From: Terrabacter sp. Root85
GTDB lineage: Bacteria > Actinomycetota > Actinomycetes > Actinomycetales > Dermatophilaceae
Assembly (NCBI RefSeq): GCF_001429185.1
Contig: NZ_LMIW01000011.1
Location: forward strand, 124,001 to 188,000
Direction: 5' to 3'
Length of the DNA: 64,000 bases
Part shown: in pieces, positions 6,001-55,273 of the stretch
Layout: each line of letters starts with the position of its first letter
Position numbering within the stretch: the first letter of the stretch is position 1
Program-made: the position numbers and the translations under genes
The notes under the pieces: model-generated
Seen by the model: only the letters and a program-made list of their open reading frames with translations
What the model was told of the DNA's origin: nothing
Database searches by the model: none

Positions 6001-9000
6001 GCTCGCCGTCTTCGCGGGACGTTTCGGCACCGACGCCCAGCGCGGTGAGCCCTGGGGCAACACGAGCGAGACCGAGGCGGACGTCGTCAAGGTGACGGCC
6101 CTGCACTTCGCCCAGACGGCCGCCGACCCGGACGGCACCGACGCGGGCTTCGACGGCTTCGCGATCCAGATGCTCGGTGAGCGCCGTGAGTACCTCGACC
6201 CGACGCTGAAGCGCGTCGTCGTCGACGGCCGCGGCTCGTCGACGCCCCTCGTCGTCAGCTTCGTGGGTGACGGCAAGAAGGACTCCGACCCGTCGTCGGC
6301 GGGCGGCGCGGGAGACCTGAGGTCCTTCGACAAGGACGCCATCGTCTTCGGCACCCCCGGCAACGACCAGATCCAGACCGGCACGGGCAGCTCCTGGGTC
6401 GACGGCGGCGACGGGGACGACCGCATCGTCACCGCCGACGCCGTGGGCCAGGTGGCCCGCGTCGCCGGCGGGGTCGGCGCCGACGCCATCACGACCGGAC
6501 AGGGCGACGACTTCGTCACCGGCGACGGCAGCCTGCCCTCGCCCCCGAAGTCCTTCTCGGCGACGCTCAACGGCGTCGACGACGCCAACTGGCCGGGCAA
6601 GACGCCCATCACTCTCGGCGACCTCGTCGACCCGGCCCAGCTGAGCGTCGACCCGACGACCCGCGCCCAGGCCACGGGCGGCGCCGACACCATCAGCGTG
6701 GGCCTGGGCCGCAACCGTGTCGACGCCGGTCCCGGCGACGACAAGGTGGGCGTCGCGGCCGACCGGCCGGACGGCTCCGGATCCACCATCCGCTCGAAGG
6801 GCAACGTCCTCGTCGGCGGTCTCGGCAGCGACGCGGTCACCGGCGGCACCGGACCCGACACGATCTACGCGTCGTCGGAGCAGACCTTCGGCGTCGACGC
6901 GGCCGGCCCGGCCGACACGCTCACGACGCCGTCCGGCCAACCGACGGTGCCGAACATCGTCGAGACCGGATCCGGTGACGACGTCGTCTACGGCAGCCGC
7001 GAGCAGGACGTCGTCACGAGCCACTCGGCGCCGTCCGAGCACGCGCGCATCCTCGGCGGCGGGGGCGAGGACGCCCTCGTCGGCGGCTACGGCTCCGACG
7101 CGATCTACGGCGGACCGGGCGACGACTACGTCGTCGCCGAGCCCAGCCGCGTCGGTGGACTCGGGGCCACCGAGACGATCGAGGGGGTCACCTTCGGGCA
7201 CACCCGCCTCGTCGAGCACCAGGCCCTGCCGACCGGCACGGCGCCCTCTCCCAAGACGCTCGTCGGTGGCCGCGGCAGCGACCACGTCCTCGGCGGCGAC
7301 GGGCCGTCCACGATCTTCGGCGACACCCTGCGTGACGCCGCGACCGTGGCAGCCGCCGCGGACGAGACCTGTCGCGCAGGCTCGCCCGTCGCGTCCGACC
7401 CGGTGCCGGAAGGCACGTCGGGTGGCAGCGACCCGAGCACCGACGACGGTGCCGACCTCATCACCGGTGGCGCCGGCGTCGACACCATCTCCGCCGGGGG
7501 TGCGGCCGACCGGGTCGACGCCCGCGGTGGCGACGACCTCGTCTGCGGCCAGCAGGGTGACGACGTCCTCTTCGGCGGCGACGGCGCCGACCGCGCCTGG
7601 GGCGGCACCGGCCAGGACCGCGGCTACGGCGGACAGGGCCTCGACCTGCTCTTCGGCAACGCCGGGGCCGACGTCCTCTACGGCCAGGAGGCCGCGGACG
7701 TCATCGAGGGCAACGACGGCGCCGACTGGGCCAGCGGCGGCGACGGCGACGACCTCGTCTACGGCGGCACGCGGGCCGCGGGCCGCACCGACACGGACCC
7801 GACCGACGCCGGCGACGTGCTCTCGGGCGACACCGGTCGCGACATCCTCATCGGTGACAACGGCACCGTGGACGACCCGTCGTCGTCTGCAGACGCGCCC
7901 GCCGTCCCGTTCGACCTCGCCGGGACCTCTCCCGACGCCGGTCGCGGCGACCAGCTCTTCGGCGGCGCCGGCGACGACACGGCATACGGCGGGCTCGGCG
8001 ACGACCGCGTCAACGGCGGCGACGACGCGGACCACCTCGAGGGCAACAACGGCTCCGACCTCGTCCACGGTGACCGGGGCGAGGACGAGGTCGTCGGTGG
8101 CTCGTTCCAGCAGGCGACCGCCGGCGTCGGGCGACCGGACTCCGGTGACGTGCTCTTCGGCGACGCCGGCCCCGACATCGTCGCCGGTGACAACGCCGTC
8201 GTGACCTCCGGGGTCAGCGCGGCCGACTCGACGCCGATCACGCGCATGCGCGGCTTCGCGACCACGCACCGGATCACGCTGCTCGACCTCGGCGTCGGCC
8301 CGGTCCTCGCCAACTCGGGGGCGGACCAGGTCTTCGGCGGTGACGACGCGGACGTCGTGCTCGGTCAGCGTGGCACCGACCGCCTCAAGGGCGACGCGGG
8401 CGACGACTACGTCGAGGGTGGGCCCGAGGTCGACTGGGTCGAGGGCGACCTCGGCGACGACGACCTCGTCGGCGGCAGCTCGACGCCTGCGGGCGGCTCC
8501 GGTGACACGACGTCCGGCCAGCCCGACACCGACGACGCCGTCTTCGGCGGTCCTGGCGACGACGTCGTCCTCGGCGACAACGGTCAGGTGCTGCGCCCGG
8601 TCGCGGGCCAGGCACCCACCTCGGTGACGGTCCGTCTCGGGAGCACGCCGGGCGCGGCGATGACGTCCCGTGTCATCGAGCCGTACGACCGGTCGGTGGG
8701 TTCGGGCTTCCTCACGACGCCGTCCGCGACGCTCTACGGCTTCGACCGCCTTTCCGGCGGCGACGGCGTCGACGTGCTCGAGGGACAGGACGGCAACGAC
8801 GTCATCACCGGTGACGCCGGCGCCGACCACGTGCAGGGCAACGGGGGAGCCGACGCGCTCTTCGGTGACCTGCCGTTCGGCACGGCCTCGGCGCACGGCA
8901 CCGCGGCGACGGCACTGAGCGCCGCCTGGCCCGGGTCGGCCAGCCCGGTGGGGCTGCTCCGGGGCCTGAGCACCGATGCGGGTCAGGACGACATCGTCGG

Positions 9001-10465
9001 CGGCACCCCGACTCCGGGCTTCCGCGACGGCGCCGACGTCATCGAGGGCAACGGCGGCGACGACGTCGTCCTCGGCGACAACGGCTCGCTCCTGCGCACG
9101 CTCGTCGGCGCAGCGGGCACTCGCTCCGAGAAGGCGTATGCCGACCGCTACCCGGACGGTCCGCTCCCGGCCGACGCGACCGTGTCGCGCACGCACGACC
9201 CGGCGCTGCCCGGGCCGAGCACCCGTTTCTGCTCCACGGCGCAGGCGACGTGCGAGGTGGTCGGGGCCTCCGGTGCCGACGTCATCTGGGGTGACGACGG
9301 CAACGACGGCATCTGGGGCCAGGACGGCGACGACACCGTGTCCGGTGGCGCCGGCGACGACGACCTCTACGGTGAGCTCGGCAACGACCGCCTCACGGGA
9401 GACAGCGGTCGCGACGCCATCGTCGGCGACCGCGGCGGCATCGTGAACCAGTACCTCAGCGCCGGCGACAGCCCGGCGGCGTTCACGAGCTCGCTCAACA
9501 GCCCGCCCAAGGAGAGCTTCACCGGCTTCGCGCGGACGGCGTACGACCGGCGCGTCGACCTGCTCCACGACGTCGACGGCGACCAGTGGATCGGCTCGTC
9601 GACCGACGCGTCGATGCCGCACAACGGCATGGACGAGGGCGGGCGCGACCTCATCCGGGGCGGCACCGACGACGACACCATCCACGCCGGCTACGGCGAC
9701 GACGTCGCCAACGGCGACAGCGGCGGTGACGACGTCTTCGGTGACGACGGCGAGGACGTGCTGTGGGGCGGCCAGGGCTGCGACGCAGGGCTCGACGGCA
9801 ACACGCCTGACTGCCGCACGAACGGCGCCTTCGACCCGTCGTCACGCGGCACGGGTGACCGGTTCGTCGACCACCTCTTCGGCGGGGCGGGCGAGTCCGA
9901 CCCGACGAAGCAGGACGTCCTCGGCTCCGACCTGCTCGACCTCTGGCCGCGCGGCAGCTACACGCCGGGCACCGGGTGCACGCTCGGTGACTGGCCGCTG
10001 ACGTCGGGCACGAAGAAGGTCGTCACGACGGTCGACCCGTGCCTGTGGTTCGAGATGACCGGGACCGACGACGCCGACCCCGCGAACAACAACCACCACC
10101 AGGGGACCGACTGGATCTACGGCGGCTGGGACCGCGACGTCATGCAGGCCGACGTGACGGCCAACGGCCCGAACGCCGGTGACCGGCTCATCGACTGGAA
10201 CGGCGCCTACAACCTGTTCTCGCACTGCAACTCGGCCTACGGCGGCTTCAACGACGTGCGTCAGCACTCGCCGGCGATGCAGGACTTCCTGCAGCAGCTG
10301 GCGTGGGCGACGAGCGCCGGACGGTCCGCCACCGACGTCACGACGGCGGGGACGTCGGCCTTCCGCGAGCTCGCGCTCGTCCACCCGGGCGAGACGGAGC
10401 ACGGGGCGGGGGCGGCCTACCCGGGCACGCCTGGCCACTTCGACGAGGCGGCCTGCCAGAACTGA
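2..10465 (+). CDS. Giant secreted RTX-repeat calcium-binding protein, 5' end missing
   Basis: The reading frame is open from base 2 and has no convincing start, so the gene begins upstream; about 3487 residues are visible. Numbering from the first visible codon, residues about 2117-3250 are packed with hemolysin-type nonapeptides (GGxGxDxLx, for example GGDGDD, GNAGADVLYG, GGAGDD), the RTX calcium-binding roll. Two EF-hand-like DPNNDG loops lie near residues 218 and 1919, and a fibronectin-III-like stretch near 1320-1380. The N-terminal two thirds are Ala/Asp/Thr-rich and not recognised. The last 230 residues carry Cys, Trp and His-rich segments (GDRLIDWNGAYN, SHCNSAYGGFNDVRQHSP) and no RTX repeats. 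Such proteins are exported and fold on external calcium; adhesin or surface-layer-like use is inference. No type I secretion genes are adjacent. Confidence 0.88.
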   Translation, partial: AGQSPAYAADPDPGVDRVVALLGGSGGTRNLAAWTSGLAGIGALGKPIPFVSASPGGLAGADDLVDRGVSPALAGTTTWADLATSGESVALPGGRTGTLDVSVDDLADGKRVHVNLVVTRTATQQALTVSSTSPKVELSSPKGVTATVEATLSLWVVWTGPTTNRVYLASDAAHAPRLDVDVTAQLSGAAKAAVGILGVTLKSTDFTVKAHAYARVNDPNNDGVLAFDAAGVGDGELAADGSLAGLVSADLDPTGSASDPGTPGSVTGTLSIAADTSGIAGVSFPSNVAADVTLTWANISTGTPTVSAPTLATLVGKFQNMSLRDLADGLAQVAVALTGIQQAKFDPDGAGPLPTTGNLDLPFLRGTVSDAVKANQVLVDFLKANVVQQPDPDQPSPAGFDATTVGNPTFDSLQDLIAKLKAAGIGLDDLAWDPTTSKLVFRMQMVKTAPSTGVAMDAGSARTSRPSATYAATGLTLDDGSQPWQANQWTGMRVMAGTSAGEIASNTKNALTFSGPWIGGQPSAGTPFVIVGPEAQLGAVTFGDRLTDQPVAGGPRRGILRANSAQTFATVKPSFAADLTLVLDLQDARTGAACIGFEGNTEACPFLQTTGAFKTNVTSLPLGADRVLIRTGSPLLTADFPIDTAVDFTANAGFFQVRLKGHLAVCNSAAPADCSAPGTGHMLSIGLKQAGDAQHDIRLRQLFDQLVTASPTGPSKAGDLLDIDVNVRATADLKASIPDADGFLPAGTDVGVSASWNDLTQLTGTDGPQLDLSRLSRIFALDIKPGSQAELFAIVLKTFQTLAAQLADAQPGGASGVYSREIPGTGTSLRDLMQRDSSGVGSDVNYGTNTLQHVGRTFDASFVGRTVVVGTQVAVVASVSGDTVTLTENWTTKPADDTAYTFRSPLDDAIDIMSVHPPQNMQDLVAFLDERLGTGALHFRYLDDGGTPSVVLDLDWKRDYQTNAPLRLDLGGDQSLVSAAATGQGSVHVKGGVDVGLVVPLAPGTGPGDASSLKVLADSKVSVAAAASFDGRVAGTIGPLTVSAGDPGGDAAKQVSLKADVSLDLADASATADTPVSFSTFLSGLDVSFNASNTPVDCGESLATPLMVCGTVPLYATVPGSPAASLGSIALRLPDSTNPADLATLTGNLPAPDAAKQRFEVPDLSAAFASAFADFTQIGPGLDGYLEKIEQAMRLATFDGKLPFVGKDLQQGADSIGRLRTEINSKLGNVPASPAEARTYVNDKLADAITAAGLEKTTLEVNYECKLKLEPTGAPTLAATPSTTGSTAWRYEIVASQGSGSGTGGDTVPSGASAAATTSWTTIGGGNSITVSWSAAAGATKYKVLRSKDGGAYELVKVVDAASGSAQTFTDDGTATATAYAPVSTKPDRTDCPTTSINGISLAFTIKAGTVTPEQGCVAGSGCLGDGKKLPLDIGIPGLALKAGDTDAISYGVGLQLHLKAGVNTTKGFVIYTHDAWQDGAAAPEFGLGARFDMPASMKAQLAFLDIDVTKNGTAPLFAGAFLVDLTSRDTTESDGSVLTVADIGDGDASSLFGISLTAKVKADWIVKASVDSVLPGVQANFVMGWEFTNQDLKHLGAPSIEFKDVAIDAGGFLSNLLGPVLKKVKSVTGPLQPVLDTLYAPIPVLSDLSRMAGGGDVSLMTLAKTFNTLAGGPKLDFVDKIAALTTLINNLPDCGGGGPSCLIPIGSFTVSGDKALDTDVSPTSSLAPGTAGSLIKTASAASPDTVKSALNTKGGKGNVFGAGGAAGSASKSGFTFPILDNPSSVFSLLMGSDVSLVEFDSGPLTLGFTWRQSFGPVYAPPPVMVTLSGSASVTLRFMAGLDTAGIRYAVEAAQQGAAVNPVKLLDGLYFKTTDSEGRPVPVVQLDGEIAAGAAVTAVIITVGIEGGLHLTIGFHWNDPNNDGKFRVSEFLHAAVNNPLCLFTTTGRLSLFLRLYVTLGFSPFSVSFSINLADITLLDFTAQPNCTPPPPRLGGTSDGTLAVFAGRFGTDAQRGEPWGNTSETEADVVKVTALHFAQTAADPDGTDAGFDGFAIQMLGERREYLDPTLKRVVVDGRGSSTPLVVSFVGDGKKDSDPSSAGGAGDLRSFDKDAIVFGTPGNDQIQTGTGSSWVDGGDGDDRIVTADAVGQVARVAGGVGADAITTGQGDDFVTGDGSLPSPPKSFSATLNGVDDANWPGKTPITLGDLVDPAQLSVDPTTRAQATGGADTISVGLGRNRVDAGPGDDKVGVAADRPDGSGSTIRSKGNVLVGGLGSDAVTGGTGPDTIYASSEQTFGVDAAGPADTLTTPSGQPTVPNIVETGSGDDVVYGSREQDVVTSHSAPSEHARILGGGGEDALVGGYGSDAIYGGPGDDYVVAEPSRVGGLGATETIEGVTFGHTRLVEHQALPTGTAPSPKTLVGGRGSDHVLGGDGPSTIFGDTLRDAATVAAAADETCRAGSPVASDPVPEGTSGGSDPSTDDGADLITGGAGVDTISAGGAADRVDARGGDDLVCGQQGDDVLFGGDGADRAWGGTGQDRGYGGQGLDLLFGNAGADVLYGQEAADVIEGNDGADWASGGDGDDLVYGGTRAAGRTDTDPTDAGDVLSGDTGRDILIGDNGTVDDPSSSADAPAVPFDLAGTSPDAGRGDQLFGGAGDDTAYGGLGDDRVNGGDDADHLEGNNGSDLVHGDRGEDEVVGGSFQQATAGVGRPDSGDVLFGDAGPDIVAGDNAVVTSGVSAADSTPITRMRGFATTHRITLLDLGVGPVLANSGADQVFGGDDADVVLGQRGTDRLKGDAGDDYVEGGPEVDWVEGDLGDDDLVGGSSTPAGGSGDTTSGQPDTDDAVFGGPGDDVVLGDNGQVLRPVAGQAPTSVTVRLGSTPGAAMTSRVIEPYDRSVGSGFLTTPSATLYGFDRLSGGDGVDVLEGQDGNDVITGDAGADHVQGNGGADALFGDLPFGTASAHGTAATALSAAWPGSASPVGLLRGLSTDAGQDDIVGGTPTPGFRDGADVIEGNGGDDVVLGDNGSLLRTLVGAAGTRSEKAYADRYPDGPLPADATVSRTHDPALPGPSTRFCSTAQATCEVVGASGADVIWGDDGNDGIWGQDGDDTVSGGAGDDDLYGELGNDRLTGDSGRDAIVGDRGGIVNQYLSAGDSPAAFTSSLNSPPKESFTGFARTAYDRRVDLLHDVDGDQWIGSSTDASMPHNGMDEGGRDLIRGGTDDDTIHAGYGDDVANGDSGGDDVFGDDGEDVLWGGQGCDAGLDGNTPDCRTNGAFDPSSRGTGDRFVDHLFGGAGESDPTKQDVLGSDLLDLWPRGSYTPGTGCTLGDWPLTSGTKKVVTTVDPCLWFEMTGTDDADPANNNHHQGTDWIYGGWDRDVMQADVTANGPNAGDRLIDWNGAYNLFSHCNSAYGGFNDVRQHSPAMQDFLQQLAWATSAGRSATDVTTAGTSAFRELALVHPGETEHGAGAAYPGTPGHFDEAACQN

Positions 10466-21770: not shown

Positions 21771-23120
21771 ATGACGATCCTCGCCGTCGACTTCGGGTCG
21801 ACGTTCACCAAGGGCGCCCTCCTCGCCGACGACGGCGCCGTGCTCGGCACGGCGTCGACCCCGACGACCGGAACACAGGGGAGCGGTGACATCCTCGACG
21901 GCTACCGGACGCTGCGCGACGAGCTGGACGTCCCCGCCGACGCGACGGTGCGGGCCTGCTCGAGCGCGGGAGGTGGGCTGCGGCTCGCCGTCGTCGGCTA
22001 CGAGCGCACCGTCACGGCCCAGGCCGGGCACCGGGTCGGGCTGTCCGCCGGGGCCAAGGTCGTCCACGTCGCGGCCGGGGAGCTGACGACCGCCGACGTC
22101 GCGGGCATCCGCGCGTCCCGGCCCGACATGATCCTGCTCGTCGGCGGCACCGACGGCGGCAACAGCAACGTCCTACTGCACAACGCCGCCCGGCTCGCCA
22201 AGGGCGCCATCGGCGGACACGGGGCGCACGCCGTGCCGGTCGTCGTCGCCGGCAACGTCGACGCGCGCGACGAGGCGGCGGCCGTCCTCGCGACGACGGG
22301 CCGGCCGACGGTCCTCGCCGAGAACGTCCTCCCGCAGATCGGGGTCATCGCGCCGGAGTCGGCACGCGCCGCGATCCGCGCCGCGTTCCTGCGCCACGTC
22401 ATCGGTGGCAAGGGGCTGTCGCGTGACCCGGCCTTCGCCGCGATGGTCGAGGCCGCGACCCCCGACGTCGTCCTGCGCGGCGTCGAGGTGCTGGCCTCGG
22501 TGACCGACGGCGGCGACGTCCTCGTCGTCGACATCGGCGGTGCGACGACCGACGTCTACTCCTGCCTGACCCCCGAGGGCGAGGACGCCGGCCTGCGCAA
22601 GGACGTCGTGGCCCCGCTGTGGCACGCCCGCACCGTCGAGGGCGACCTCGGCATGCGGTGGAACGCCGAGCACGTCGTCGAGGCCGCCGTGGCCGAGCAC
22701 CTGCTCGACACCGTCGCCGACCCCGACGCCCTGACCGCGTATGCCGCCCGCGTCCACGAGCGTCCCGGCTCCCTCCCCGTGGACGACGCCGAGCGCGCCC
22801 TCGACCTCGAGCTCGCGCGGCTGGCGGCGCTCGTCGCGGTGCGCCGGCACGCACGCCCGGCCCAGCCGACGGAGTCGCCGCGACCGCTCGCGAACGTGAC
22901 GGCGCTCGTCGGGTCCGGGGGAGTGCTGCGCCACACCGACGCGGCCGGGCGCGACCACGTGCTCGGCGCGGTCCTCGCCGACCACGCCGGTGGCTGGAAG
23001 GTGCCGCGCGCCGCCCGCGCGACGGTCGACACGGCATACCTCCTCTTCGCGGCCGGCCTGCTCGCCGACGACCCCGACGAGGGCCACCTCGCCCGAGCCG
23101 TAGCCACCCAAACCCTCTAA
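21771..23120 (+). CDS. MutL/GlmL-family ATPase, glutamate-mutase-associated
   Basis: 449 residues with an actin-like ASKHA fold. Phosphate loop 1 is VDFGSTFTKGA at the N-terminus, the adenosine/phosphate 2 loop is VVDIGGATTDVYS (about 248-260), and VGGTDGGNSNVLL and LVGSGGVLRHT are family hallmarks. Known members lie beside glmS/glmE (B12-dependent glutamate mutase) and are thought to reactivate it, but no mutase subunit is present here. Its stop codon is followed at once, with no gap, by the 32-bp repeat array. This is the MutL of glutamate mutase, not the DNA-mismatch-repair MutL. Confidence 0.85.
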   Translation: MTILAVDFGSTFTKGALLADDGAVLGTASTPTTGTQGSGDILDGYRTLRDELDVPADATVRACSSAGGGLRLAVVGYERTVTAQAGHRVGLSAGAKVVHVAAGELTTADVAGIRASRPDMILLVGGTDGGNSNVLLHNAARLAKGAIGGHGAHAVPVVVAGNVDARDEAAAVLATTGRPTVLAENVLPQIGVIAPESARAAIRAAFLRHVIGGKGLSRDPAFAAMVEAATPDVVLRGVEVLASVTDGGDVLVVDIGGATTDVYSCLTPEGEDAGLRKDVVAPLWHARTVEGDLGMRWNAEHVVEAAVAEHLLDTVADPDALTAYAARVHERPGSLPVDDAERALDLELARLAALVAVRRHARPAQPTESPRPLANVTALVGSGGVLRHTDAAGRDHVLGAVLADHAGGWKVPRAARATVDTAYLLFAAGLLADDPDEGHLARAVATQTL

Positions 23121-23210
23121 CCGTCGAAAGGCCAACGTTTGCGGGTGCTGACCCGTCGAGGGGCCAACGTTTGCGGGTGCTGACCCGTCGAAAGGCCAAC
23201 GTTTGCGGGC
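23121..23210. repeat. Left 32-bp-period repeat array (three units)
   Basis: Three units start at 23121, 23153 and 23185, exactly 32 bp apart. All share GTCGA--GGCCAACGTTTGCGGG; unit 2 has GGG where the others have AAG after CGA. The roughly 7-nt linkers (TGCTGAC) are the same, so this is not a CRISPR. The array starts on the base after the MutL stop. An inverted copy of the array lies on the far side of the next gene. Confidence 0.9.
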
Positions 23211-23287
23211 ACCAACGGTTGTCCACACCTCTTTGGCCGCAGCCGCCGTGACGCACAGGTGACCCGACGGGCGTCGCGCGACGTGCC

Positions 23288-24298
23288 ATGGCGCCGGACC
23301 GTCTGGGCATGGAAGCCCAAGCACTGCCACCCGACCTGCTCACTCGTCCCTTCAGGACGTCGGAGGCACTCCGACGGGGAGTGACACCCTCTCGACTGCG
23401 TGCCGACGACCTGTGGACCCCGACACCGGGCGTCCGCACCGTCGAGATTCCGATGACGCTGCTCGAGCGTACGTATGCGTTCGCCGCCGCGGCGCCCCAG
23501 GAGTTCGCCTTCGCGCACGCCACGGCGGCTCGTCTCCTCGGGATCCCGCTGCCGTACGCGCTCGACGAGGATCCGCACATCCACATCGTCACGCGCACCG
23601 ATGCCAATCGGATCCGGCGCGGCGAGGTGATGGGCCACCGCGGTCTGGAGTCGCGAGGGGTCGTCGAGGTTCACGGTCTTCCGGTCGTCGGTCCTGCGGA
23701 CACGTGGGCGGACCTCGGGGAGTACGTCGGTGCCGGACTCCCGGTTGGCCTCGATGACCTCATCGTTGCGGGCGATGCGGCAGCAAACCTCCTCGGGGAG
23801 GTCGCCCCGCTCAAGCGGGCCGTCGAGGCGAGGGTGCGGCCCCGTGGCAAGGTGACCCTGACGTTCGCCCTGCCACGGGTGCGGCTCGGAGCGTGGTCGC
23901 CCATGGAGACCCGTAGCCGTCTGATGGTCACTCGGGCAGGACTTCCGGAGCCTCGTCACAACCGCCCGGTGGTCAGTCACACCGGCGAGTGGCTCGGGTT
24001 CGGCGACCTCGTCTGGGAGGAGCAACGTGTTGTGGGGGAGTACATGGGCGTCGAGTTCCACACTCGCTCACGGGACAAGGTCCATGACGGTCTCCGCCGT
24101 GACCGGGTCGAGCGAGGCGACTGGGCCGTCGTCGAGATCGTCTCTGCCGACGTGTTCGAGCACGAAGCCCGTGCCGCGAAGCTGCGCGAGATCGCCGGCT
24201 GCCTGGGGGTCAACGCTCACGTGCTGGACGTGATTGCCGCCGCGCCGCAGTTCTTCGCGCCTGCTCAGTTCGCTCGGCCTCGCCGTCGACGGTCTTAG
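23288..24298 (+). CDS. AbiEi-like / Vsr-DUF559-like protein inside repeat arrays
   Basis: 336 residues. The N-terminus (RPFRTSEALRRGVTPSRLRADDLWTPTPGV) resembles the winged-helix start of AbiEi-type antitoxins. The C-terminal third (SPMETRSRLMVTRAGLPEP, then GFGDLVWEEQRVVGEYMG and FHTR, about 203-260) resembles the Vsr/DUF559 branch of the PD-(D/E)XK nuclease fold: D-x-x-W ... E-Y-x-G-x-x-x-H. The usual active-site Asp/Lys after the Glu is not obvious, so catalysis is uncertain. Base composition is visibly less GC-rich than the neighbours and the gene splits the metB/mutL-greA block, both signs of transfer. ATG at 23309 is an alternative start. Function unknown. Confidence 0.75.
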   Translation: MAPDRLGMEAQALPPDLLTRPFRTSEALRRGVTPSRLRADDLWTPTPGVRTVEIPMTLLERTYAFAAAAPQEFAFAHATAARLLGIPLPYALDEDPHIHIVTRTDANRIRRGEVMGHRGLESRGVVEVHGLPVVGPADTWADLGEYVGAGLPVGLDDLIVAGDAAANLLGEVAPLKRAVEARVRPRGKVTLTFALPRVRLGAWSPMETRSRLMVTRAGLPEPRHNRPVVSHTGEWLGFGDLVWEEQRVVGEYMGVEFHTRSRDKVHDGLRRDRVERGDWAVVEIVSADVFEHEARAAKLREIAGCLGVNAHVLDVIAAAPQFFAPAQFARPRRRRS

Positions 24299-24304
24299 CG
24301 GTGG

Positions 24305-24396
24305 GCAACCGCGATCATTGGCCTTTCGACGGTCAGGGACCCGCGAACTCTGGCCTTTCGACGCTTGGGGACCCGCGAACTTTGGCCTTTCGACGG
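24305..24396. repeat. Right 32-bp-period repeat array (three units, inverted)
   Basis: Three units in opposite orientation to the left array, with their CGACG ends at 24327, 24359 and 24391, again 32 bp apart. The shared core on the plus strand is GGCCTTTCGACG preceded by CCCGCGAAC; the unit nearest the gene is the most diverged. The first unit begins 6 nt after the stop of the AbiEi-like gene. Confidence 0.9.
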
Positions 24397-24413
24397 GTGA
24401 GGGTGGGGATGTG

Positions 24414-24453
24414 CGAGCGGGCCGGCCCCTCCGTGGAGGGGCCGACCCGCTCG
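24414..24453 (-). terminator. Terminator hairpin of greA
   Basis: CGAGCGGG (24414-24421) pairs with 24446-24453 and GGCCCCTCC (24424-24432) with 24435-24443, one mismatch in about 18 bp. It lies 18 nt beyond the greA stop codon on the minus strand and separates it from the repeat array. Confidence 0.65.
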
Positions 24454-24471
24454 GTCAGGCGTCTGCGGTGC

Positions 24472-24957
24472 TCAGCCGGTGTAGGGCTTCGCGGCGATGA
24501 TCTTGACGCCGATGGTCTTGCCGTTGGGGGCGACGTAGCTCGTGCTGTCGCCGACGCTCTTGCCGTTGATGGCGGCGCCCATGGCGGACTTCTCGGAGAA
24601 GACCTGCAGGTCGGAGCCGTCGGCGATCTCGCGGTTGCCGAGCAGGAACGTCTCCTCGTCGCCGAAGATCTCGACGGTCACGAGCATGCCGGGCTCGACG
24701 ACGCCGTCGTCGGGGGGCGTCTCGCCGATCGTCGCGTTCTGGAGCAGCTCGGTGAGCTGGCGGATGCGGGCCTCCATCTTGCCCTGCTCCTCGCGGGCGG
24801 CGTGGTAGCCGCCGTTCTCCTTGAGGTCGCCCTCCTCGCGGGCCTCCTCGATCTTGTGCGCGATCTCGATGCGACCTTCGCCCGTCAGCTGGTCGAGCTC
24901 CGCCTTGAGGCGGTCGTGGGCCTCCTGGGTCAGGAAGCCAGAGGCAGTCTCGGTCAC
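24472..24957 (-). CDS. greA: Transcription elongation factor GreA
   Basis: 161 residues, the normal GreA length. The N-terminal coiled coil (about 10-80) ends in the acidic loop EEAREEGDLKENGGYHAAREEQG that enters the RNA polymerase secondary channel to stimulate cleavage of backtracked RNA; the C-terminal FKBP-like domain has VEIFGDEETF and SEKSAMGAAINGK. The GTG start at 24957 is preceded by AAGGAG at 8-nt spacing; longer in-frame extensions upstream are unlikely to be translated. The neighbours DUF4307 and mca match the mycobacterial order Rv1080c-Rv1081c-Rv1082. Confidence 0.96.
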   Translation of the reverse strand: MTETASGFLTQEAHDRLKAELDQLTGEGRIEIAHKIEEAREEGDLKENGGYHAAREEQGKMEARIRQLTELLQNATIGETPPDDGVVEPGMLVTVEIFGDEETFLLGNREIADGSDLQVFSEKSAMGAAINGKSVGDSTSYVAPNGKTIGVKIIAAKPYTG

Positions 24958-41654: not shown

Positions 41655-42134
41655 GTGGAGCGCCAGGTGCGCTGGGCCACCACTGACGACACCCAGGACT
41701 TCGGTCGACGGCTCGGCGCCCTGCTGCGCGGTGGCGACGTCCTCGTCCTCACCGGCGACCTCGGTGCCGGCAAGACGACGCTGACCCAGGGCATCGCCGA
41801 GGGGCTCGGGGTGCGCGGGCCGATCACGTCGCCGACCTTCGTCATCGCGCGGGTGCACCCGTCGCTCGTCGGCGGCCCGCTGCTCGTCCACGTCGACGCC
41901 TACCGCCTCGGCAGCGCCCTCGAGCTCGACGACCTCGACCTCGACGCCGACCTCGACGCGAGCGTCACGGTCGTCGAGTGGGGCGCAGGTCTCGCCGAGC
42001 AGCTGAGCGACACGCGGCTCGAGCTGACGGTCACCGGCGACGACGTGCGCACGGCGCGGCTGGTGGGAGTGGGCGACCGGTGGGACGACGTCCTCGAGGC
42101 CGTGGCGCCGGCGACCCGACCTGACCTGACCTGA
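41655..42134 (+). CDS. tsaE: tRNA t6A biosynthesis ATPase TsaE
   Basis: 159 residues. P-loop GDLGAGKTT at 34-42, followed by ITSPTFVIARVH, HVDAYRL and VTVVEWGAG. TsaE binds the TsaB-TsaD complex and is needed for threonylcarbamoyl-adenosine modification of ANN-decoding tRNAs. GTG start 4 nt after the hydrolase stop. The stop codon lies in a CTGAC pentamer repeat; because each unit encodes Leu-Thr-stop, changes in copy number would not change the protein. Confidence 0.95.
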   Translation: MERQVRWATTDDTQDFGRRLGALLRGGDVLVLTGDLGAGKTTLTQGIAEGLGVRGPITSPTFVIARVHPSLVGGPLLVHVDAYRLGSALELDDLDLDADLDASVTVVEWGAGLAEQLSDTRLELTVTGDDVRTARLVGVGDRWDDVLEAVAPATRPDLT

Positions 42135-42150
42135 CCTGACCTGACCTGAC
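42121..42150 (+). repeat. CTGAC pentanucleotide tandem repeat
   Basis: Six perfect CTGAC copies, with partial units at both ends. They span the tsaE stop codon and the start of the tsaE-tsaB spacer. Confidence 0.9.
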
Positions 42151-42216
42151 CTGTCCGCGTGAGCCGGGCGGACGGCATGCGCGCGTACGGGTTCGGGGGC
42201 CCGGCGGGTGCTCGGA

Positions 42217-48995: not shown

Positions 48996-49149
48996 AGCCC
49001 GTGGCGGCCGTCGCGCTCGGTCGAGGAGCGCCGAGGCGTCTGTTGCCGGGAGCGGCATCGGCGGCGGGCCGCTGACGCTGGAACGCCACGTCGGAGACGG
49101 ACGCCCGCCGACGCTGCACGCCGCGAGCGGCGGCGGTCGCTTTGGCAGC

Positions 49150-49234
49150 CGGGGGTGCCGGTCAGCCGGGGCTGCCGGTCAGGCGGGGGTGCCGGTCAGG
49201 CGGGGGTGCCGGTCAGGCGGGGGTGCCGGTCAGG
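49150..49234. repeat. 17-bp tandem repeat at a gene 3' end
   Basis: Five contiguous 17-bp units (start positions 49150, 49167, 49184, 49201, 49218), consensus CGGGGGTGCCGGTCAGG. Unit 5 contains the stop codon of the methyltransferase gene and the gene's last codons resemble the unit, so the array grew by duplication of the gene end. Confidence 0.9.
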
Positions 49235-50471
49235 CGGGGGTGACGACGAGGGCGACCTGGCCGCCTCCGACGCGTGTCAGGACGAGCGTCGCCTCCGAAC
49301 CGCCCTTGCCGCGGCCGGTCATCTTCAGCTGCCGGCGCAGCAGGTCGGCGTCGAGAGTCACGCCACGCTTCTTGATGGTCACCCGGTCGTGGCCGTGGTC
49401 GCGCAGCCAGCGGGCGAGCCGCTTCGTCGACAGGGGCATCGCCTCGACGACCCGGAAGCGCCGCGCCCACGGCAGCTCGCGCGCGACGCCGCTCGAGACG
49501 TAACCGACGCCCGTCGCGAGCTCGGCGCCGTCGACGGCCGCGACGAGCGCCCCCGTGAGCCCGGCCCGGATGACGGCCCGGTCCGGCTCGTAGAGCCACT
49601 CGCCGATGTCGGTCACCGACCCGAGGCCGGGTCTCTGGCCGCCGTCGACCGCATCCTGATCCGTGACGACGGACGTCGAGGTCTCGGTGCACACGGCGGC
49701 GGTCCGTCCGGCGGTCGCGACGAGCGGTCCCCACCAGACTGCGCACTCGAGCACCTCGCCGTGCCACGACGTCCACTGCGCCTCCGCCCCCGACGGGACC
49801 GAGCCGTGCGGGAACGCGGGGGAGAGCTTGGCCCCCGTCGCCGGCACCTGCTCCGCGAAGTCGAGCACCTGTGACCACGACGGCGAGATCGCGTCGAGCG
49901 AGAAGACGCGCTTCGTGCGCCCGCTGATGTCGGCCACGCCGGTGACGCGGCGGGCCGGGTCGAGCCACAGCCCGAGGTGCCGTCGCCCCTCGCCCTGCGG
50001 GAGGCGTACGTCCTCGGCGAGCCCGTGCGTCACCCGGGCTGACGGCCAGTGGCGCAGGTTGACCGCGGCGATGCGGGCGGTCGTGTCGTCGGCGTCGACG
50101 GCGTTGACGGTGAGGTCGAGACCGGCGAACGCCATGGCGTCGGCGCCCAGCCCGCACCCGAGGTCGTAGACGTCGCGGACCCCGGCAGCGGCGTACCGGT
50201 GGGCGTGTCGCGCGGCGATGGCGAGGCGCGTCGACTGCTCGAGCCCGTCGGAGGTGAAGAGCATGCCGGCAGCGAAGTCGCCGAACTTCTCGGTGCCGCG
50301 CGAGCGCAGCCGCGACTGGGTCATGGCGGCCGCGACGAGGTCGGCCGCGAAGCCCGCCTCGCGCAGTCGGCCCTGCAGGTGCAGCGAGCCGTCCTCGTCG
50401 TAGGGAGGCAGCGACTGGAGCAGGGCCCAGCCCTCACCTGCGGAGAGGCGATCGACCATGGCGGCATCCAT
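49230..50471 (-). CDS. SAM-dependent methyltransferase with THUMP-like domain
   Basis: 413 residues. A helical N-terminus (LPPYDEDGSLHLQGRLREAGF) is followed by a Rossmann methyltransferase core with motif I VYDLGCGLGADAMAFA (101-115), AVDADDTTARIAAVN and LWLDPARR; the C-terminal THUMP-like part has the basic GVTLDADLLRRQLKMTGRGKGG. Related proteins are predicted RNA methyltransferases, target unknown. The ATG at 50471 follows AGGATGAGG; longer frames upstream run into the groES promoter. Its 3' end is duplicated in a 17-bp tandem repeat. Confidence 0.85.
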   Translation of the reverse strand: MDAAMVDRLSAGEGWALLQSLPPYDEDGSLHLQGRLREAGFAADLVAAAMTQSRLRSRGTEKFGDFAAGMLFTSDGLEQSTRLAIAARHAHRYAAAGVRDVYDLGCGLGADAMAFAGLDLTVNAVDADDTTARIAAVNLRHWPSARVTHGLAEDVRLPQGEGRRHLGLWLDPARRVTGVADISGRTKRVFSLDAISPSWSQVLDFAEQVPATGAKLSPAFPHGSVPSGAEAQWTSWHGEVLECAVWWGPLVATAGRTAAVCTETSTSVVTDQDAVDGGQRPGLGSVTDIGEWLYEPDRAVIRAGLTGALVAAVDGAELATGVGYVSSGVARELPWARRFRVVEAMPLSTKRLARWLRDHGHDRVTIKKRGVTLDADLLRRQLKMTGRGKGGSEATLVLTRVGGGQVALVVTPA

Positions 50472-54200: not shown

Positions 54201-55273
54201 ACGACCTGTCTCCCATGAGCGACCTCATCGCCGACGACCTGCTGCTCGACCGCCTCGCCGGCCGCGTAGACGCCGGGTCCGAGCCGGTCGTCGCGTTGCT
54301 CGGTGCCCTCGCGGCCCACGCCGACACCCCGCTGCCCTCGCGCACCGGGCGCCGACGGATCGCCAACAAGCACCGCTACCTCGGGGCCTTCGCGGCCCTC
54401 GCGGTCGCAGCGTCCGGTGCCGGGGTCGCGGCCGCCGTCACGCTCCCGACCAACGGTCCGAGCCAGGCCGACCGCGCCCGCATCGTCAAGAAGATGGACG
54501 AGAGCGCCCGGAGCGACAGCCCCAGCGCGCTGCTGGCGCGCCTCGGCCTCCCGCAGACCTCGGGCACCACCGAGGCCAGGGGACTCGTCCTCGCGCGCGC
54601 CGAGGACGGCACGATCGTGCTGCTGCCCGCCGCGGTGGTCGCCGCCCAGGGCCGCGCGGCTGCTGCGGGGACCAACGGCATGCCCGGCGCCGTCGCCGGT
54701 GCGGAGGGCGGGCGTCCGGTCGCGAACGGTCTGAACGGCGGGCAGAAGGGCCAGACCGGCAACGGCCAGACCGGAGGCGGTCAGGTCGGAAGCGGTCAGG
54801 TCGGCAACCCGCAGGGCGGCACCGCGGCCGGCGGTGGCCAGACCGGCACGCCGCAGGCGACGAACAACGGCAAGAAGCCAGCCGTCGGCACCAAGGGCGG
54901 GAAGAAGGCCACCATGACGCCGACGGCCACGCCGACTCCCACCCCGACGGGCACGTCCGAGGTCGTCCCGCAGGCCACGCTCGCCACGAGCACCCCCACC
55001 GCCCCGGCGTCCAAGACGCGCGCGACCGGCCCCGTCCGTCCGCGCCCGACCGGAACCACCGGCGGCTCGAGCGGATCGGGATCGTCCGGCACGTCCGGCA
55101 GCACGAGCGACGGCACCAGCGGCACCAGCGGCACCAGCGGCACCAGCGGCACCAGCGGCACCGACGGCACCGACGGTCTCACCGACACCCTGTCGGGCAC
55201 GCTCGACGGCGCCGCCTCGACGACAGCGGGCGTCGTCGGCGCCCTCACGCTGCCCGTCGTGCCCACCCTCTGA
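54197..55273 (+). CDS. rsdA: RsdA-like membrane anti-sigma-D factor
   Basis: 358 residues. The N-terminus (LIADDLLLDRLAGRVDAGSEPVVALLGALAAHAD, 10-43) matches the sigma-D-binding helix region of RsdA. One membrane helix (about 61-81) is followed by an external Gly/Thr/Ser/Pro-rich region of about 270 residues. GTG start overlaps the sigma gene stop. In M. tuberculosis RsdA (Rv3413c) is degraded to free SigD. The exterior holds GTS repeats coded by five perfect 9-bp units (GGCACCAGC, about 55108-55152), so length variation between strains is likely. Confidence 0.85.
   Translation: MNDLSPMSDLIADDLLLDRLAGRVDAGSEPVVALLGALAAHADTPLPSRTGRRRIANKHRYLGAFAALAVAASGAGVAAAVTLPTNGPSQADRARIVKKMDESARSDSPSALLARLGLPQTSGTTEARGLVLARAEDGTIVLLPAAVVAAQGRAAAAGTNGMPGAVAGAEGGRPVANGLNGGQKGQTGNGQTGGGQVGSGQVGNPQGGTAAGGGQTGTPQATNNGKKPAVGTKGGKKATMTPTATPTPTPTGTSEVVPQATLATSTPTAPASKTRATGPVRPRPTGTTGGSSGSGSSGTSGSTSDGTSGTSGTSGTSGTSGTDGTDGLTDTLSGTLDGAASTTAGVVGALTLPVVPTL

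Follow-up and report, generated by a model that had tools for sequence, protein, structure and literature searches.

An AbiEi-like, Vsr-like gene of Terrabacter lies between inverted arrays of a dispersed 32-bp repeat, and many of its relatives have a repeat of their own

The closest described parallels to the locus reported here are the REP/RAYT systems, or REPtrons, in which inverted extragenic repeats enclose the single gene to which they belong, many dispersed and mainly extragenic copies lie between convergent or codirectional genes, and enzyme and repeat co-vary. In the passages cited, RAYTs are described as HUH/Y1 enzymes (PMC3116915, PMC8266576, PMC3733652). The CGTC-tagged REPs are presented in the cited part of one of these papers as palindromic extragenic repeats, apparently without a dedicated transposase, the superfamily having an unpaired CGTC tag, an 8- to 9-bp stem beginning with AT, and a CCA tail (PMC3733652). 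Some large bacterial families of REP-like repeats have no known enzyme. Among the matches listed in open-licence PMC papers, none described dispersed repeats in association with AbiEi-, DUF559-, or Vsr-type genes.

In the window, i.e., the whole 64,000-nucleotide stretch of Terrabacter sp. Root85 DNA that we analyzed, one gene lies between two arrays of 32-bp units (Table 1). The initial annotation had described three units per side in opposite orientation, and this was confirmed by unit alignment and by Tandem Repeats Finder (scores of 164 for the left array and 128 for the right array). The left-array units (23121-23152, 23153-23184, and 23185-23216) have 88 to 94% identity to the first unit, those of the right array are 74 to 87% identical with the same 32-bp step, and the two arrays form inverted repeats over 88 nt with 77% complementarity. 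The stop codon of the upstream gene ends at 23120 and, as had been noted, the left array follows without a gap from 23121; the stop codon of the bracketed gene ends at 24298. Translation likely begins at the ATG at 23309, which aligns with the relatives, an alternative being the ATG at 23288. The gene had also been called less GC-rich than its surroundings, which holds for GC3 (0.788 versus 0.951 to 0.976 in six neighboring genes) and so for an unusual codon usage, but not for overall GC content (0.689, close to the 0.681 of greA). Likewise, the neighbor labeled mutL encodes a MutL protein by name (PF13941) but not the MutL of mismatch repair.

Table 1. Positions of the bracketed gene, its two arrays, and its neighbors in the window
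Feature	Position	Strand	Remark
Upstream neighbor, MutL protein (PF13941)	21771..23120	+	Stop codon ends on the base before the left array
Left array, three direct 32-bp units (CCGTCGAAAGGCCAACGTTTGCGGGTGCTGAC type)	23121..23216	+	Oriented towards the gene
Gene for a 329-aa protein with an AbiEi-like front part and an EDxHD/Vsr-like nuclease domain (predicted)	23309..24298	+	
Nuclease domain (predicted), residues 194 to 301	23888..24211	+	
Right array, three 32-bp units in inverted orientation	24302..24396	-	Oriented towards the gene
Downstream neighbor, greA	24472..24957	-	Convergent

We then analyzed the sequence and the predicted structure of the protein, to which searches of Pfam, NCBIfam, and PHROGs assigned no family. 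PADLOC returned a weak AbiEi profile match for the front part (E value of 2.6e-4), and the predicted structure showed similarity to MenT1 and to Rv2827c, which we take to be an AbiEi antitoxin, indicating an AbiEi/Rv2827c-like part. The remainder was predicted to have the catalytic-domain fold of the EDxHD/Vsr nuclease superfamily, with a fold match to the homing endonuclease I-Bth0305I; Foldseek gave no match below an E value of 0.03. These profile and structural matches support the earlier proposal of an AbiEi-like front part joined to a Vsr-like domain, and we regard the protein as a putative combination of an AbiEi-like part with an EDxHD/Vsr-type nuclease domain. The residues conserved in this domain are E200, D233, E244, H251 (an H within positions 248 to 252), D260, and R263. 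In an alignment of 29 members, E200, D233, and the H within 248 to 252 were present in all 29, and D260 was present in 28; judging from their order and the predicted fold, the conserved E, D, H, and D probably correspond to the residues of the EDxHD motif. At an E value of ≤1, the DUF559 model (PF04480) matched 17 of the 29 aligned members (best, 1.8e-9) and MTES_1575 matched 14 (best, 7.1e-7), but the window protein itself reached neither model. No transposase family was found among the nine Pfam families matched by any of the 29 members.

The gene differs from the known carriers of these domains in its setting. In contrast to I-Bth0305I and Vsr, it lies in no intron, intein, or mismatch-repair context, and its predicted nuclease is fused to an AbiEi-like part and tied to dispersed repeats. 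Compared with homing endonucleases in general, it is free-standing, intergenic, and fixed at one locus. The likeness to AbiEi antitoxins consists of the weak profile match and the structural similarity of the front part, whereas the nuclease domain is an addition and no AbiEii nucleotidyltransferase toxin gene adjoins the gene. Since no partner gene was found among the immediate neighbors (the MutL gene and greA), an AbiE operon was rejected.

The 32-bp unit recurs in many other places of the same genome. A core pattern of 20 fixed letters, with ≤3 mismatches allowed, gave 26 matches in the 4.87-Mb genome and the reversed pattern gave none, which excludes chance; a looser core pattern gave 43 matches and its control gave 9. 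Many matches formed arrays with a 32-bp step, and several were mirrored pairs around a hairpin. When genes were called with a simple codon-based gene finder, 8 of 15 non-home sites lay between convergent genes, 6 between codirectional genes, and 1 between divergent genes, and a stop codon was found within about 40 nt at 14 of the 15. The unit is a dispersed family, mostly 3'-intergenic, in its own genome. The idea that the repeats are confined to the gene was not borne out, and a bracket private to the locus was rejected as a description of them.

In several respects the locus parallels the REP/RAYT systems: a single gene stands between inverted extragenic repeats of its own, the copies are many, dispersed, and mainly extragenic (gene positions being taken from the 15 own-genome sites), they lie between convergent or codirectional genes, and enzyme and repeat co-vary, as described below. 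The differences are the enzyme (an HUH/Y1 tyrosine transposase there, an EDxHD/Vsr/DUF559-like domain here), the GTAG tag beside the stem, which is absent from the window units (these begin with CCGTCGA), and the 32-bp direct arrays that the window units form. By analogy, layout and population behavior resemble those of REP/REPIN elements with their RAYT, apparently with an unrelated enzyme, and the locus does not belong to that group, given its enzyme and its lack of the tag. The window units share CGTC at their beginning with the CGTC-tagged REPs, but at the mirrored dispersed site L043 this CGTC is paired inside the stem, and the stem and tail consensus differ.

We next compared the window's genome (G000) with other genomes. 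An orthologue with 68 to 87% identity was found between the mutL and greA genes in Intrasporangiaceae URHB0013 (G004), Terrabacter tumescens JCM 1365 (G006), Terrabacter sp. Root181 (G007), Ter38 (G008), and Humibacillus xanthopallidus (G047); with G000, these are six genomes from two genera, in which the neighboring MutL and GreA proteins are 85 to 97% and 91 to 99% identical, respectively. The site is empty in three congeners, G001, G003, and G005, where about 150 to 170 bp separate the coding ends and no unit core is present at ≤2 mismatches. Arrays were counted as pairs of unit cores 32 bp apart with ≤2 mismatches, the inner sequence being ignored. Such pairs numbered 35 in G000, 180 in G004, 70 in G006, 73 in G007, 88 in G008, and 192 in G047, versus 3 in G001, 3 in G003, and 19 in G005, where the mismatch fraction was counted and 15 of the 19 pairs contained mismatches; 86 other genomes had 0 to 4 pairs. 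This count is not a pure one, because related paralogue families, e.g., GTCGAGTGCCCA, also match the pattern. A pattern that included the window's inner letters separated the genomes less well (37, 180, 56, 15, 29, and 18 in the gene-bearing genomes, in the same order, versus 7, 7, and 9).

Arrays without a detected gene were found in G002 (44 pairs; genome 74% complete, with greA likewise not found) and in G037 (23 pairs; 58% complete), and G036 (15 pairs; 81% complete) has just a 48% relative. In a three-gene tree, G003 nested with G000 and G008 (support of 94 to 98), and G001 and G005 were placed elsewhere with weak support. Because G003 groups with two gene-bearing genomes, the absences of the gene probably do not go back to one event. 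Array abundance tracks gene presence among the compared genomes, with these exceptions, and the close tie between gene and repeats that the initial annotation had put forward is supported. One outcome that it had named as refuting its reading, repeats widespread without the gene, was seen within the genome; across genomes, array abundance follows the gene, with the exceptions given here.

We compared three array sites (A, B, and C) across species where synteny permitted. Exact or near-exact arrays were present in 11 of 12 gene-bearing cases over the three sites, and species lacking the gene had a lone hairpin, half a unit, or a decayed array. All five gene-bearing species had mirrored arrays (from 1+/3- to 7+/5-) at site C, which lies between a helicase gene and a thioesterase gene; of the three gene-less species, G003 and G005 had one hairpin each there and G001 had a half unit. 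Exact tandem pairs were found at sites A and B in 6 of 7 gene-bearing cases versus none of 5 gene-less cases; the exception was site B of gene-bearing G004, where the unit is missing and the left neighbor differs. As for the gene-less species, G005 retains a decayed pair at site A, G003 has a hairpin at site A and a trace at site B, and G001 has decayed units at site B. None of the compared sites showed an array cleanly inserted into an otherwise empty intergenic region, A and C bearing a hairpin, half a unit, or a remnant in gene-less species too; array growth and homogenization therefore track the gene better than dispersal does.

The inner 20 nt of the units had a mean identity of 0.62 between different sites within a species versus 0.48 at the same site between species, a difference reached by 1 of 5,000 label shuffles. 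The units of one genome evolve in concert, which fits copying between sites within the genome or selection by each species' own protein. At site A of G001 (L231, 3570-3860), we also observed a hairpin of another family, of GTCGAGTGGTCACT type, where relatives bear the window's family, and it resembles the repeats beside G001's own paralogue L064.

We then looked into the flanks of relatives of the gene, some mutL-greA orthologues included, at no fewer than 55 loci (at least) from named genomes, 51 of which had usable flanks. At a score of ≥20, a matching repeat was found on both sides of 32 of the 51 relatives versus 0 of 238 control genes from the same loci; at a score of 15, the numbers were 39 of 51 and 10 of 238. 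Accordingly, 19 relatives fell under a score of 20 and 12 under a score of 15. The repeat varies among relatives. Both sides of the G048 gene carry one and the same 68-nt hairpin, whereas G030, G044, G051, and G091 have different hairpins and G023 has arrays of short units. For three of these private repeats, we counted the matches in 19 genomes. The half-hairpin of G048 had 40 matches in G048 (4 at the gene), 1 in G051, and 0 in the 17 others; the hairpin of G091 had 17 matches in G091 (6 at the gene), 1 in G038, and 0 in the 17 others; and the unit of G023 had 203 matches in G023, 325 in G047, and ≤2 in each of the 17 others. In G047, the 325-copy unit of G023 type brackets a paralogue that aligns only from residue 103, and the paralogues of this genome carry differing repeats, of GTCGAGTGGCCA, ATCGAAAGAGCAGT, and GTCGAGTGCCCAC types. 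The paralogues in the window's own genome are few and distant: the one with 48% identity adjoins a TCGAGTGAGCGC repeat, and those with 33% and 31% have no clear flanking repeats. At L287, the second paralogue of G023, two units of the ATCGAAAGAGCAGT type, which is the other paralogue's repeat, lie on one side, so paralogues are not fully separated by their repeats.

Repeat sharing was scored as repeated 11-letter words in 691 between-genome pairs from 38 loci. By falling protein similarity, words were shared by 22 of 36, 14 of 129, and 15 of 526 pairs. Because several of the 22 sharing pairs have only greA-side words in common, we recounted with words required on both flanks, which left 9 of 36, 2 of 129, and 8 of 526 pairs, and then omitted the mutL-greA pairs as well (5 of 21, 2 of 129, and 8 of 526). 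For each count, none of 2,000 permutations reached the observed correlation between protein and repeat. Against this trend, the window's core also occurs at a distant relative (L074; 41%). A repeat of its own accompanies many a relative of the protein. As a separate observation, a transposase-like gene, presumably IS30-like, lies in G048 inside the loop of a dispersed hairpin (L100, 1501-2742; C1:919800-921041), and a second half-hairpin pair with equal spacing (C1:3670600/3671840) suggests that this insertion sequence targets the repeats.

In our proposal, the gene together with both arrays represents the "home" copy within a system made up of a repeat and its enzyme, a reading to which we give a probability of roughly 0.6. 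The AbiEi-like front part would bind the 32-bp unit and, because 32 bp corresponds to about three helical turns, neighboring proteins would lie on one face of the DNA. The EDxHD/Vsr-type domain would then nick or cut in or beside the unit, and repair or copying from another unit would add units (array growth), overwrite units (homogenization), and occasionally seed a new site. Once the enzyme was gone, arrays would shrink to a single hairpin or decay. Propagation of the repeat by a nuclease is suggested by sequence comparison, and binding, cutting, and repair copying together would explain the growth and homogenization of the arrays, the protein-specific repeats, and the decay after gene loss.

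The main rival is a DNA-binding regulator or chromosome organizer. The arrays would be its own operator and a genome-wide regulon of selected binding sites, host recombination would do the copying, and the nuclease domain would act otherwise. The AbiEi/Rv2827c-like part, the three-turn spacing of the units, and the position of one array (23121-23216) upstream of the gene start at 23309 all suit such a protein, and protein-repeat co-variation and concerted evolution suit binding as well as propagation. We nevertheless consider this unlikely, since most of the sites lie 3' of genes and in convergent intergenic regions, which seldom contain promoters, the active-site positions are retained in 28 to 29 of the 29 aligned members, and the rapid turnover of unit sequences between species would be odd for a conserved regulon.

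That the repeats are terminators or mRNA 3' ends under host selection, two of which merely insulate the gene, seems improbable to us. It would agree with the many sites between convergent genes, with the single hairpin that gene-less G003 and G005 retain at site C, and with the folding of the one mirrored dispersed site (L043), which gave a strong hairpin (z of -5.8). Each gene-side array folded alone, however, formed no hairpin (z of -0.10 and -0.45), and plain hairpins beside the gene were rejected on these values. Scanning of 23050-24480 for sigma-70 and terminator signals gave no hit, with no T-run terminator signature beside the gene, and terminators would leave unexplained both the private, protein-matched repeats and the scarcity of arrays without the gene. 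Because the mirrored site folds and the gene-side arrays do not, the gene occupies the position of the hairpin loop of the other sites.

Two further readings, both raised by the initial annotation, are weak. An AbiE-like defense or toxin-antitoxin unit, with the nuclease as toxin or antiphage enzyme and chromosomal arrays that titrate it or mark self, would draw on the weak AbiEi profile match, the similarity to MenT1 and Rv2827c, and the nuclease domain; it is very improbable given that the immediate neighbors include no toxin partner, that the family databases named above place the protein in no family, and that a search of 50,697 phage records gave no match at an E value of 1e-5. Three Arthrobacter plasmid records matched the protein at 30 to 32%, and recent import by phage or plasmid was rejected as an origin of the gene. 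We give least credence of all to a mobile or homing cassette, in which gene and arrays would move as one and the dispersed arrays would be deletion remnants: the inward arrays around the gene share their layout with arrays around hairpin loops elsewhere, and the fold matches I-Bth0305I, but the gene keeps one locus in six genomes of two genera between neighbors 85 to 99% identical and is absent from three empty-site congeners that hold no unit core, its paralogues are few and distant, and the repeats are scattered over the genome.

We also examined single-domain DUF559 genes beyond the Actinobacteria. In a plasmid collection, 27 records matched single-domain DUF559 proteins, and 21 loci were compared with 33 control genes that were annotated at six of these loci; in unannotated records, gene ends were estimated. 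The same repeat was found on both flanks at 12 of the 21 DUF559 loci versus 1 of the 33 control genes. The 12 bracketed loci are from Azospirillum (2), Sinorhizobium, Neisseria, Deinococcus (5), Pseudanabaena, and Picosynechococcus (2) and are not independent, because several share a genus. The Sinorhizobium meliloti element has 19 matches in its own record and 265 in 105 records, with about 40% of its length covered in most records among the matches listed; the cyanobacterial element occurs at 5 and 8 places, and the Deinococcus repeat occurs at just 6 places in 4 plasmid records. This bracketing in other phyla is a lead, the sample being small and uneven. It adds to the likeness between the DUF559 (PF04480)/MTES_1575 families and the aligned members noted above, several single-domain DUF559 genes being palindrome bracketed too.

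More tentatively, Vsr/EDxHD/DUF559-type nucleases could form a second, RAYT-independent class of enzymes that propagate and homogenize private extragenic repeats by cutting and repair copying, not by HUH transposition, with an AbiEi-like specificity module in Actinomycetota and as bare DUF559 proteins in Proteobacteria, Deinococcota, and Cyanobacteriota. Such a class, which we consider possible and put below even odds, would account for many enzyme-less REP-like families. Where the members of a widespread nuclease family stand between dispersed repeats of their own, and the arrays are scarce if the gene is absent, the persistence of such repeats becomes testable in harmless soil bacteria. The association would further point to a function of DUF559 proteins and supply naturally diversified protein-DNA pairs for studying the evolution of binding specificity.

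Individual DUF559 genes bracketed by palindromes of the CCCTC...GAGGG type or by other palindromes were seen at L209, L210, L217, L218, L220, L303 to L306, and L308 to L310. Repeats of dRS3/CGTC type were rejected as the partner of the DUF559 genes in the plasmid collection: in a scan of 12 of the loci, a single dRS3-like string was found (at L219), >800 bp from the match, and the bracketing palindromes were of the types just named. Elsewhere in the window, several 27-bp and 9-bp tandem repeats at 7561-9797 could encode glycine- and aspartate-rich repeats, perhaps of RTX type. Near-perfect short tandem repeats lie at 49146-49242 (17-bp unit, 5.7 copies) and 55111-55171 (9-bp unit, 6.8 copies), and the pentanucleotide GACCT, repeated 8.2 times with 97% matches at 42113-42153, is a possible slippage site.
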